From contig CACSIN010000001.1 in the NCBI GenBank assembly GCA_902705835.1, forward strand, positions 165,325 through 207,475: 42,151 bases of DNA, in the 5' to 3' direction. Below the pieces are notes generated by a model. The model was not told the origin of the DNA. It saw only the letters and a program-made list of their open reading frames with translations, and searched no databases. How positions within the stretch are numbered: position 1 is the stretch's first letter; each line of letters begins with the position of its first letter. The position numbers and the translations under genes were made by a program. Origin of the DNA: BD1-7 clade bacterium (GTDB taxonomy: Bacteria > Pseudomonadota > Gammaproteobacteria > Pseudomonadales > DT-91). Below, piece after piece: positions 1,048 through 5,917 of the stretch.

Positions 1048-2268
1048 ATGACCCAACAGAACGAACAACCTCTGCTGAATAAATTGGCAAGCCGCCGTAT
1101 TCTTCTCGGTATCTCGGGTGGTATTGCTGCCTATAAGTCTGCTGAATTGGTAAGACGTCTGCAAGATGCAGGTGCAGATGTTCGAGTTGCAATGACGCGG
1201 GCGGCACAAGAATTCATCACCCCACTGACACTGCAGGCTTTGTCCGGGCACCCAGTCCATACTAGCCTTCTCGACCCAGAAGCCGAAGCCGCGATGGGGC
1301 ATATTGAGCTGGCGCGCTGGGCAGATCTCATCTGTATCGCACCGGCCACAGCGGATGTCATTGCGCGTATCCACGCGGGCATGGCCGACGACTTGTTGAC
1401 CACCCTATGTCTCGCCAGCAAGGCACCTAAAGTGTTGGCACCGGCCATGAATCAAGCCATGTGGTCAGACACTCATACCCAACAGAATGTCAACGCCCTC
1501 GCGCAAGCCGGCTATCACATTGCCGGGCCCGCGGCAGGCTCTCAAGCCTGTGGGGATGTCGGCTTCGGACGCATGTTGGAACCTGAACAAATTCGCGATG
1601 CAATTGCAGATCAATTCGGCGACACATCATTGACCGGCAAACACGTCGTTATTACAGCCGGTCCGACGCGCGAAGCCTTTGACCCTGTTCGATTTATTTC
1701 TAACCATAGTTCCGGCAAGATGGGCTTTGAACTGGCCCGTGCAGCTAGCCACTGTGGTGCACGGGTAACGTTAATCGCGGGCCCCGTCAACCTGCCAACA
1801 CCTGATCGTGTCGAACGGTGTAACGTTATTAGTGCCAACGATATGCATAAGGCCAGCCTTGCTTTAGCGCCTTCAGCCGACATATTTATCGGCTGTGCCG
1901 CTGTTGCTGATTATCGGCCAGCGCACATTGAAACACAGAAAATCAAAAAATCAGGCGATACTCTATCTATTGAACTGGTGAAAAACCCGGACATCGTCGC
2001 GGATGTTGCCCGACAAATACCCAAACCGTTTTGTGTCGGCTTTGCCGCAGAAACCACCGAATTAAAGAAACATGCCACGGGTAAACTAACACGCAAAGGG
2101 TTGGATTTAATTATCGCTAACGACGTTTCCAATCAAGCCATTGGCTTCAACAGCGACGACAACGCAGTGACGGTTTATTCCCATAGCGATACAACAGAAT
2201 TCAGCCAGTGCAGCAAAGCACAGCTAGCGAATCAATTAATCGAGCTGATTGCTACACACTTAGACTGA
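1048..2268 (+). CDS. coaBC: Bifunctional phosphopantothenoylcysteine decarboxylase / phosphopantothenate-cysteine ligase
   Basis: This enzyme adds cysteine to 4'-phosphopantothenate (CoaB) and decarboxylates the product (CoaC), two steps of coenzyme A synthesis in the cytosol. The 406 residues have the normal two-domain order. The flavin-binding CoaC domain covers about residues 1-185, with catalytic His85, the APAMNQAMW motif around 131-139 and the flap cysteine Cys168 in [10 protein letters not shown]. The CoaB domain follows, with [18 protein letters not shown] near its start and the KIKK substrate motif. The ATG has TAGGAG upstream. It is divergent from radC. The dut gene that usually follows it in related bacteria is missing here; algC begins 62 bases later. 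Confidence 0.97.
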
Positions 2269-2330
2269 CATTTAGCCGACAAACGCCACTGTCGTCGATG
2301 AACTTTCAAGCCCCGCATTAAAGGCAGCGC

Positions 2331-4979
2331 ATGAATAAGAAAAAAAATAAAGCCACTAAAAATACCAGAGCGACAAAAAAGGCCGGCAAGAAGATCAGTC
2401 CGGTGATTATCGCCATAATCGCGGCCGCGATCATATTTGCTTGTGCAGGCGGCGGTATTGCCTTTTTGCAAGCGACAACCGAATCCAGCAGCCTTGCCCA
2501 ACAACGTGATCATCAACGAGATCTGGTCGGCCAAGCTGCCGAGCAGGTGGTGATACAACGCTTTGAGGAAATTCATAGCCAGGTAAATTCGATTGCGAAT
2601 GACAACCCGCGACTGCTAAGTAGCCTCAACGAATTTATGGCAGCCTTCAAAAAACAACAAGCCGAGGCGTTGAAACAATCCCGGATCGCCAAGTTGCAAC
2701 CCGACGCACCGATAGCCGATACGCCAACAGAAGCTCCGTCGGTTGATGCAAATGACCCAAAAAATATCCTCATCGATGCCGATCAACAACTGCAGCGTGA
2801 ATTCCCGGGTACAGTCACTGCTCGTTTGCTGCCGTGGACATACGCTGGCAGCGCTGGGCTAAAAAATCAGGCGCTAAAACTGCGTAACAATATGGAAATC
2901 CATCTATTTGCCAATGCCGGCGATGAAAAACACGAAGCCCCGCGTATCTACAAAGTGGATGACCAGTGGGTTTTCAGCATGGCGTATCCGGTTAAAAAAG
3001 GTGAGGACGTGAAAGGTGTGATTCTGCTTACGTATCCGGCAAGCCAGTTACAGCAAATACTCAACAAAATGTTCTTAACAGAACACGCCAGTTTAACACT
3101 GGAGTTGCAACCCAAGAACCAGCGCATCTTTAAGCTAGGCACTGCGAATGCCAACAACGTCGTAACGTTCGAAACTCCGCTTCATAATACGTCATTAAAG
3201 ATCAGCAGCCGCGCCCCTAACCCGACCGGCGTCGCCTCGAATTATCAAGCCGTCTACGGGCTGATCATCGCCATTGCGGTTGTTGCAGCCATTGCCTGTC
3301 TGGCGGTTTACTTTCTGGTTATCGCGAGAGTTCGCAAAGACGCTGCCGCTTTAGAACAGTTTCTAATCCGGCTTGAAGGGCTGCATCAGGGGGAGACGCC
3401 GGAAATGACCATCGCACCGCTCCAAATTGTCGCTAATCAGGCGGATAAATTACGCGGTAAGGTCGGTAAAAATACATTAACAGCCAGCACCGACGGCAAT
3501 ATGGAAACCGACTTCAGTAACGCCAAATCCAAAGGCAATAATCAGTCTGTCGCCTTTTCCGATGTCGCCGACATGGCCATGGTTGAAGAGCAAGCAGACG
3601 AACCAGAGCCACCGACCTACCTGCATTTATTCCGCGATTATGATATTCGCGGCAATGCTGAAGAGATTACCGACGAACTGGCTATCTGGATCGGTCAAGC
3701 CCTTGGCACTGAAGCACTGGAACGTGGCTTAAAAACACTCGCGGTTGCTGGTGATTGCCGTCTCTCAACGGCGCGTTTAAAAGCCGCACTGATACAAGGC
3801 GTCACAGCCACAGGGTGTGATGTGGTTGATGTCGGCCAAGTACCGAGCCCGGTGTTGTATTTTGCAACCCATCATCTCAATACCCAAGCCGGCATCATGG
3901 TCACCGGTAGCCATAATCCGAAGGATCACAATGGCTTCAAGATGCTGATGGGCGGCCAAAGCCTGCATGGAGAAGAAATTCAGCAGCTGGCATCAAGAAT
4001 TCAAAAGCAGGATTTCAAAAAAGGACAGGGGCAAACCTCGTCCACTGATCTAACCCATGCCTATATCGATGAGATATGTACTGACGTCATTGCTGCAAAT
4101 CCTATGAAGATTGTGGTGGATGGCAGTAACGGCGCGGGCGGTGAAATTGCCTGCTCTATTCTTGAACAACTCGATTGTGAAGTCGTACCACTGTACTGCG
4201 AAATGGATGGTAGCTTCCCGAATCATGATCCCGATCCGTGTAACCCAGACAACCTGCAAGACTTGATTCAAACCGTCAAAGATAACAACGCCGATATGGG
4301 TATCGCGCTGGATGGTGACGCCGACCGCATGGTTGCAGTAACACAAGACGGCACCATCGTAGACGGCGATCAGTTGATGATGATTTTTGCCGCCGACGTG
4401 GTATCACGAAACCCTGCCAGCACCGTGGTTTATGACATCAAATGCTCACGCCATCTCAACAAAGTGATTACTGAGAACGGCGGCCGGCCGGTGTTATGGA
4501 AAACTGGCCACTCCAATATCAAAGCCAAAATGCAAGAAACCGGCGCGCTACTTGGTGGCGAATTTACCGGGCATTTCTGTTTCAAAGAACGCTGGTACGG
4601 ATTTGATGATGGCATTTACTCAGCTATGCGCCTGATCGAATTATTAACCATGGATGACCGCAGCCTTGATGAACGGATCGGCATGCTGCCAACCACCATC
4701 AGTACACCAGAAATGGTATTGGACATCAGTAGTGATGCGGAAAAATTCCGTATTATGGAACAACTCAGCCAGACGCTGGCTCAAACCGACGGGAACCTTA
4801 TCGATATTGACGGGGTTCGCATCGAATATAATGACGGCTGGGGGCTTGTTCGCGCATCCAACACTGGCGCACGCCTGACTGCTCGCTTCGAAGGTGATTC
4901 CCAAGAAGCATTGGAACGTATCAAACATACGTTTAGCCAAGCATTGGCCGCGGTTGATTCTGATCTCGCCATCCCCTGA
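2331..4979 (+). CDS. algC: Membrane-anchored phosphomannomutase/phosphoglucomutase with N-terminal sensor-like half
   Basis: Interconverts mannose-6-P/mannose-1-P and glucose-6-P/glucose-1-P for LPS, exopolysaccharide and rhamnolipid precursors. The last ~463 of 882 residues match classical AlgC: phosphoserine loop TGSHNP with Ser527, magnesium loop DGDADR at 661-666, sugar loop GEFTGH at 744-749 and phosphate loop RASNTG from 841. Each lies about 419 residues later than in P. aeruginosa AlgC numbering (Ser108, Asp242, Glu325). The additional N-terminal part has a basic start, a membrane segment at ~24-46, a ~260-residue presumably periplasmic domain, a second membrane segment at ~309-332 and a linker. 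The reading frame is continuous, so this is one polypeptide. The periplasmic part resembles a Cache-type sensor fold by eye only. Similar long AlgC forms are known in pseudomonads. argB follows after 38 bases. Confidence 0.93.
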   Translation: MNKKKNKATKNTRATKKAGKKISPVIIAIIAAAIIFACAGGGIAFLQATTESSSLAQQRDHQRDLVGQAAEQVVIQRFEEIHSQVNSIANDNPRLLSSLNEFMAAFKKQQAEALKQSRIAKLQPDAPIADTPTEAPSVDANDPKNILIDADQQLQREFPGTVTARLLPWTYAGSAGLKNQALKLRNNMEIHLFANAGDEKHEAPRIYKVDDQWVFSMAYPVKKGEDVKGVILLTYPASQLQQILNKMFLTEHASLTLELQPKNQRIFKLGTANANNVVTFETPLHNTSLKISSRAPNPTGVASNYQAVYGLIIAIAVVAAIACLAVYFLVIARVRKDAAALEQFLIRLEGLHQGETPEMTIAPLQIVANQADKLRGKVGKNTLTASTDGNMETDFSNAKSKGNNQSVAFSDVADMAMVEEQADEPEPPTYLHLFRDYDIRGNAEEITDELAIWIGQALGTEALERGLKTLAVAGDCRLSTARLKAALIQGVTATGCDVVDVGQVPSPVLYFATHHLNTQAGIMVTGSHNPKDHNGFKMLMGGQSLHGEEIQQLASRIQKQDFKKGQGQTSSTDLTHAYIDEICTDVIAANPMKIVVDGSNGAGGEIACSILEQLDCEVVPLYCEMDGSFPNHDPDPCNPDNLQDLIQTVKDNNADMGIALDGDADRMVAVTQDGTIVDGDQLMMIFAADVVSRNPASTVVYDIKCSRHLNKVITENGGRPVLWKTGHSNIKAKMQETGALLGGEFTGHFCFKERWYGFDDGIYSAMRLIELLTMDDRSLDERIGMLPTTISTPEMVLDISSDAEKFRIMEQLSQTLAQTDGNLIDIDGVRIEYNDGWGLVRASNTGARLTARFEGDSQEALERIKHTFSQALAAVDSDLAIP

Positions 4980-5002
4980 TCTAACTCTTTTATGTTACGT
5001 AG

Positions 5003-5917
<915 letters not shown>

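Follow-up and report, generated by a model that had tools for sequence, protein, structure and literature searches.

The algC gene of a BD1-7 clade bacterium (Gammaproteobacteria; Pseudomonadales) encodes a protein of 882 residues, of which only the C-terminal part corresponds to the classical mutase, and this raises the question of what the N-terminal half is and how it might act upon the enzyme. The gene lies in a stretch of 42,151 nucleotides (assembly GCA_902705835.1, contig CACSIN010000001.1, positions 165,325 to 207,475), hereafter the window, whose first letter is position 1. It is nearly certain, in our view, that the product is an anchored AlgC with a dCache domain, composed as follows:

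2331..4979, + strand: algC, membrane-bound form; a single frame with an ATG start, 882 residues
2331..2402, + strand: Lys-rich cytoplasmic tail, residues 1-24; net charge +8 over the 20 residues before helix 1
2403..2459, + strand: first predicted membrane helix, residues 25-43, from hydropathy and the AlphaFold2 model
2460..3263, + strand: predicted periplasmic dCache-fold domain, residues 44-311; best-modelled core about 143-296, sub-threshold Pfam dCache_1 match at 208-247
3264..3320, + strand: second predicted membrane helix, residues 312-330, from hydropathy and the AlphaFold2 model
3321..3626, + strand: cytoplasmic linker, residues 331-432; residues 375-423 have a predicted local distance difference test score (pLDDT) below 50 and are read as disordered; no HAMP
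3405..3407, + strand: codon of Met359, in the linker; GGGGGAG 9 nucleotides upstream, duplex energy -9.9 kcal/mol
3627..4934, + strand: PGM_PMM domains I-IV, residues 433-868, from Pfam; Ser527, 661-665 and 743-748

The frame runs from the ATG at 2331 to the stop at 4979 without an internal stop in its 882 codons, as an earlier note on this DNA, made from the letters alone, had supposed. Its C-terminal part contains all four Pfam PGM_PMM domains (114.9, 98.3, 83.9 and 39.4 bits, each above its cut-off) together with the catalytic serine, DGDxD and GExxGH motifs of a phosphomannomutase/phosphoglucomutase (PMM/PGM), here in the form of TGSHNP with Ser527, DGDAD at 661-665 and GEFTGH at 743-748. 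We take Ser527 to be the catalytic residue, D661, D663 and D665 to form the metal loop, and E744 and H748 to belong to the sugar loop. The soluble P. aeruginosa AlgC (1k35) aligns with residues 430-882 (E 3e-156), and the P. aeruginosa AlgC structures align only from residue 430 or 433 onward. The earlier note had placed the beginning of the classical enzyme at about residue 420; the catalytic C-terminal part is indeed there, with a start about 10 residues later and the Pfam match from 433. The best NCBIfam match is PgmG at 468 bits, under its cut-off of 600. The same genome encodes two further members of the phosphohexomutase superfamily, GlmM (457 residues), which exceeds its curated cut-off, and a CpsG-type PMM (452 residues) with a match of 690.6 bits, under the cut-off of 801; unlike the window AlgC, both are without the N-terminal half. 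In the full-length AlphaFold2 model (mean pLDDT 79.7), helices at 24-91 and 299-349 flank a mixed alpha/beta domain, which is followed by the stretch 375-423 and then by the enzyme, so that the predicted order within the single frame is membrane helix, periplasmic domain, membrane helix and AlgC-type PMM/PGM.

The two hydropathy peaks of the protein, at residues 25-43 and 312-330, lie within these helices and match the two membrane segments that the earlier note had drawn at about 24-46 and 309-332. Topology was assessed across 51 long forms, obtained from a total of 53 by excluding L011 and L054, which lack two hydropathy peaks; this set includes the window protein along with L005, its near-twin, and closely related Pseudomonas sequences, and counts drawn from it are not independent. 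Left outside it are the short forms, namely L035-L038 along with most of the 60 other loci among 80 named ones, and L106, which has its enzyme motif at residue 333 and no membrane helix. The flanks on the inner side contain more lysine plus arginine than the outer ones in 45 of the 51, with four ties and two opposite cases, and the loop is therefore most likely periplasmic and the enzyme cytoplasmic, as had been assumed in the earlier note. The loop is 268 residues long in the window against a median of 219 in the set; the minimum of 65 comes from L015. Both L015 and L079 (a frame of 1567 codons) carry extra peaks, and the flanks of L015 were accordingly read at the wrong place.

The loop was modelled from window residues 40-315 with an alignment of 20 sequences, giving a mean pLDDT of 72 with core blocks at 69-93. 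Foldseek comparison of this model with the PDB recovered 57 matches at E<=1e-3, with the KinD sensor domain on top (E 5.8e-7), followed by McpU, TlpQ and Mlp24 and, lower down, by Tlp3, CqsR and PctC; among the best 50 of the 57, the single row of a plainly different kind is DosP. VIA-align of the loop with 4jgo_A yields a Z of 9.8 over 171 residues with a root-mean-square deviation of 4.7, a Z slightly above the common range of 7-8, and the agreement in superfamily among the Foldseek rows is the stronger argument. The predicted fold identifies the loop as a dCache sensor domain, with an extracytoplasmic position, two flanking helices and double PAS-like modules after a long helix, all at moderate model confidence; the suggestion of a Cache-like loop in the earlier note is thus substantiated by the hits to KinD, McpU, TlpQ and PctC. 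At E<=1, Pfam dCache_1 (PF02743) matches seven of 20 family members, with a best value of 8.5e-6. The hexapeptide LRNNME (window 2880-2897, residues 184-189) opens one of the helices of the dCache domain. An LRNNIE-like signature is common to 21 of the 51 long forms, and signatures of this type are a candidate ligand or dimer surface.

Comparison with the closest relative, L005 (genome G142; 95% identity over residues 1-420), indicates that the N-terminal half is under protein-level purifying selection: the ratio of non-synonymous to synonymous divergence (dN/dS) is 0.106 for residues 1-420, from 54 synonymous and 22 non-synonymous changes, and 0.021 for the catalytic part (430-882). This bears on the proposition that the N-terminal half is an annotation artefact and that the sole product is a soluble form with its start near residue 415. 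ATG codons do stand at residues 415 and 417, and six of the 10 solved AlgC sequences listed begin at the corresponding internal Met of another long gene, L123. Against this, the selection just described, the conserved topology and the homologous N-terminal halves set out below all point to a genuine protein, and hardly any ribosome-site match precedes Met415 and Met417 (-1.6 kcal/mol, by a weak measure on which the long start itself reaches -3.7). The artefact reading is strongly disfavoured, to the extent of being very nearly dismissible; an internal start near residue 420 as the only product, which the earlier note had named as fatal to its proposal, did not turn up, and the conservation that it had asked for is present.

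Within the order the N-terminal half is matched at E<=1e-3 in 42 of 194 genomes (its own genome counted) and 19 of 96 genera; the frames, measured from stop to stop, have 595-1022 codons and no stop within the match. Across the class the catalytic part is present in 281 of 369 genomes at E<=1e-60; among the class matches listed, the 148 non-window matches divide into 69 frames of at most 560 codons, four of 561-720 and 75 above 720. The family of G094, of the Pseudomonas type, has the gene in 115 of 119 genomes at E<=1e-100, with frames above 780 codons in 94 of the 115, three of intermediate length and 18 of at most 560 codons, two of these 18 being partial matches. The class-wide and G094-family lengths are measured from stop to stop and are hence upper bounds. 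At least two hydropathy peaks precede the enzyme in 31 of 32 long homologues from the genome searches. In an uneven sample of named genomes comprising at least 80 loci, the TGSH motif lies beyond residue 380 in 20, of which 19 have at least two such peaks. Each of the 20 carries a gammaproteobacterial name (Halioglobus, Marinobacter, Pseudomonas, Sedimenticola, Nitrococcus, Dokdonella, Oleiagrimonas, Stenotrophomonas, Luteimonas, Kangiella, Methylophaga and others), the Klebsiella label of L088 being counted among them. The latter locus, on a contig titled Klebsiella pneumoniae from a metagenome-assembled genome, encodes a long AlgC with adjoining coaBC and argB and is probably a mislabelled bin. 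Profile comparisons of the loops without their membrane helices, covering 43 of the 51 long forms in four groups, gave hhalign values of 96.1-99.7% in five of six group pairs (order versus Pseudomonas 99.7%, order versus Xanthomonadales 96.1%, Xanthomonadales versus others 98.4%), against 0.0-0.5% in three controls with permuted columns. With the helices the picture is the same, and the window group of four sequences versus Xanthomonadales reaches 76.6%. From these comparisons, the N-terminal half is seen to have relatives across Gammaproteobacteria.

Such a protein has a history in the literature. A paper of 2019 is devoted by its title to membrane-bound AlgC in gammaproteobacteria (Qian, Fei and Galperin 2019, Environ Microbiol 21:3969); it is cited in PMC12542728 and in PMC9537760, where a passage of the discussion invokes it for type IV pili. 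The N-terminal half is not undescribed, since that title already concerns the membrane-bound form, and the remark of the earlier note that its role is poorly described is in part mistaken. The abstract of that work is said to report two membrane segments, a periplasmic dCache domain and a coaBC-dut-algC cluster, with Lysobacter enzymogenes as the organism; the long form had reportedly been missed in P. aeruginosa, where truncated frames were used. The window has all of these features except dut. The membrane-bound AlgC family is already published and common in gammaproteobacteria, the window protein is an ordinary member of it, and what remains of interest is, in modest measure, mainly the question of two forms in the P. 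aeruginosa lineage. With respect to known sensors, the predicted fold of the loop is like that of the dCache domains of KinD, McpU, TlpQ, PctC and CqsR, the last of which we place with sensor kinases and chemoreceptors. Unlike KinD, McpU, TlpQ and PctC, which are sensor kinases and chemoreceptors, the window protein has as its output a metabolic enzyme on a disordered linker.

These observations are best accommodated, and rather probably explained as a whole, by an anchored dCache-AlgC that tunes precursor supply in response to a ligand. Two membrane helices would hold the periplasmic dCache domain, and a flexible linker of about 100 residues would anchor the PMM/PGM at the inner face of the inner membrane. 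The dCache domain might bind a periplasmic small molecule; binding could change the self-association or the partner contacts of the anchored enzyme, and the changed contacts might then tune the local supply of mannose-1-phosphate and glucose-1-phosphate for envelope polysaccharides. In P. aeruginosa, according to a passage of PMC4064291, AlgC supplies these two sugar phosphates for lipopolysaccharide, alginate, Psl and rhamnolipid. That the dCache domain senses a ligand and that this alters mutase output is, taken by itself, evenly balanced in our judgement, and the proposal of the earlier note that a periplasmic signal tunes the precursor supply of the mutase is plausible. Should AlgC natively be a sensor-enzyme of the membrane, a built-in control would be missing from the solved structures, which cover only the 463-residue part.

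Several points weigh against this explanation. The loop model reaches a mean pLDDT of 72, and the two helices at its start are of poor quality. Pfam dCache_1 reaches 18 bits at residues 208-247 against a cut-off of 45, and what is claimed is therefore a dCache fold and not membership in PF02743. The direct hhalign comparison of Pseudomonas with Xanthomonadales failed (0.3% without the helices, 1.9% with them), and these two groups are for this reason linked only via the others. The fragment R-x-W-Y/F, which we take to be part of the ligand motif of amino-acid-binding dCache_1AA domains, occurs in none of the 51 long forms, the window included, and this sets the window loop apart from the amino-acid dCache sensors. 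Seven short forms stand between CoaBC and ArgB, the usual neighbours of the long gene (L052, L056, L057, L062, L066, L070 and L072), and the N-terminal half is therefore dispensable at these loci. Finally, residues 375-423 of the linker are disordered in the AlphaFold2 model, and the linker is not HAMP, since hhalign gives it 5.4% where a split-HAMP control reaches 98.6%. A HAMP-like linker had been considered on account of the helix-gap-helix arrangement after helix 2, and this comparison ruled it out; nor, for 20 family members, does HAMP figure among the Pfam families shown (25 of 27). With a disordered, non-HAMP linker, a rigid piston or coiled-coil signal path is unlikely, and the modelled properties of the linker favour tethering, or control via clustering, partner binding or location, over rigid coupling.

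The same linker lends some weight to a rival account, in which ligand binding by the dCache domain has been lost and the domain acts as a structural anchor or a surface for assembly. The benefit would then be that the mutase is kept close to the machinery for membrane glycans or pili, perhaps via an acidic linker motif. A motif of the DILDID type is found in 12 of the 51 linkers (L018, L020, L027, L045, L046, L047, L013, L019, L025, L028, L043 and L055) with shuffled linkers giving 0.21 on average and with the reservation that related sequences are not independent; it is absent from the window linker and, recurring as it does in an otherwise variable segment, is possibly a partner-binding motif. 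The disorder of the linker, the lack of HAMP and of the amino-acid motif fragment, and a dN that is higher in the N-terminal half than in the enzyme are likewise what a mere tether would lead one to expect. However, ligand-binding sensors share this fold, which has been kept in distant lineages, and a single helix would suffice for a bare anchor. We consider this account possible, with the larger share of the probability lying elsewhere. Another alternative, to which we assign a slightly smaller share still, is that one gene yields two forms, an internal promoter or start giving a soluble mutase in addition to the anchored protein, with regulation by choice of form. In the window this draws on Met359. 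No other in-frame start of the linker has a strong match of the ribosome-site type, and the duplex energy for Met359 is -9.9 kcal/mol against -3.7 for the long start; a soluble form may be made from Met359 in this organism. Yet the equivalent of Met359 in L005 reaches only -4.6. For the family as a whole, the average for the strongest internal start of each linker is -6.26 (50 of the 51 long forms), for control codons in the catalytic part -6.59 and for the long starts -6.69, so that the measure, on which true long starts do no better than controls, is weak and separates little; moreover, 17 of the 51 linkers are without an ATG. An internal start conserved throughout the family accordingly finds no support.

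The argument for two forms is of a different nature in the P. aeruginosa lineage. A passage of PMC4064291 places the AlgR sites of algC at -94, +163 and +391 of the mapped transcription start. In L123 (genome G567, of the P. aeruginosa type), algC is a frame of 868 codons, the last 463 residues of which are identical to 1k35 at 457 of 463 positions (98.7%), and the three published sites recur at positions 1501, 1757 and 1985, inside the long frame and at -340, -84 and +144 of the internal ATG. Their spacings of 256 and 228 fit the published values (256 when position zero is not counted), and this puts the mapped transcription start near codon 324, beyond the codons of the second membrane helix (272-290). 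The transcript that depends on AlgR therefore cannot encode the anchor, and in an L123-type gene it could yield only the classic soluble form of 463 residues. All 10 solved AlgC sequences listed match only residues 406-868 of the L123 protein or less, and the six mentioned above begin exactly at its internal Met. From these alignments the classic P. aeruginosa AlgC thus appears to correspond to the C-terminal portion of a long frame of this type.

How far this extends beyond L123 is limited by the distribution of the sites. The exact pair of the first two AlgR sites occurs in just two of 25 genomes of the genus of L123, with one hit within algC, that of L123 itself, relaxed forms not having been searched in these 25 genomes; as a general Pseudomonas feature the trio thus finds no support. 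Six Pseudomonas-type loci were scanned as well, and L045 has one site with one mismatch, the other five none. The N-terminal half of the window gene contains no AlgR-like site; positions 1901-5100 hold two one-mismatch 9-mers, at 3672 and 4668, which lie in the catalytic coding part and are taken as chance. A tentative reading, which we rate on a par with the tether account, is a dual-output algC in which an upstream transcript would give the anchored, dCache-tuned mutase and, in the P. aeruginosa lineage, an embedded AlgR promoter would give an untethered, unregulated cytosolic mutase for alginate. If so, classical AlgC biochemistry would describe only the emergency form. The embedded promoter provides an easy way of finding out whether the classic data on promoter and enzyme cover only one of two forms.

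The gene order around algC in the window is radC (on the reverse strand), coaBC, algC, argB and a TetR/SlmA-like gene, all named by recognition, and the immediate neighbours are:

1048..2268, + strand: coaBC, upstream, 62 nucleotides from algC
5018..5917, + strand: argB, downstream of algC

Searches with the window coaBC and argB proteins, contig-end loci being kept in, place CoaBC beside 17 of the 20 long loci versus seven of the 60 others, and ArgB beside 13 of the 20 versus 10 of the 60, and the order conserved around long algC genes is coaBC-(dut)-algC-argB. The gene dut, which presumably lies between coaBC and algC in related genomes, is absent from positions 2269-2330, a difference from the published membrane-bound form; PF00692 has no match at E<=0.001 in the whole genome (100% complete), against matches in 11 of 14 control genomes, and another type of dUTPase may serve here. 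The seven short-form loci named above, of which L052, L056 and L057 are of the Halomonas type, keep both neighbours and thereby provide a natural test of what the N-terminal half contributes.

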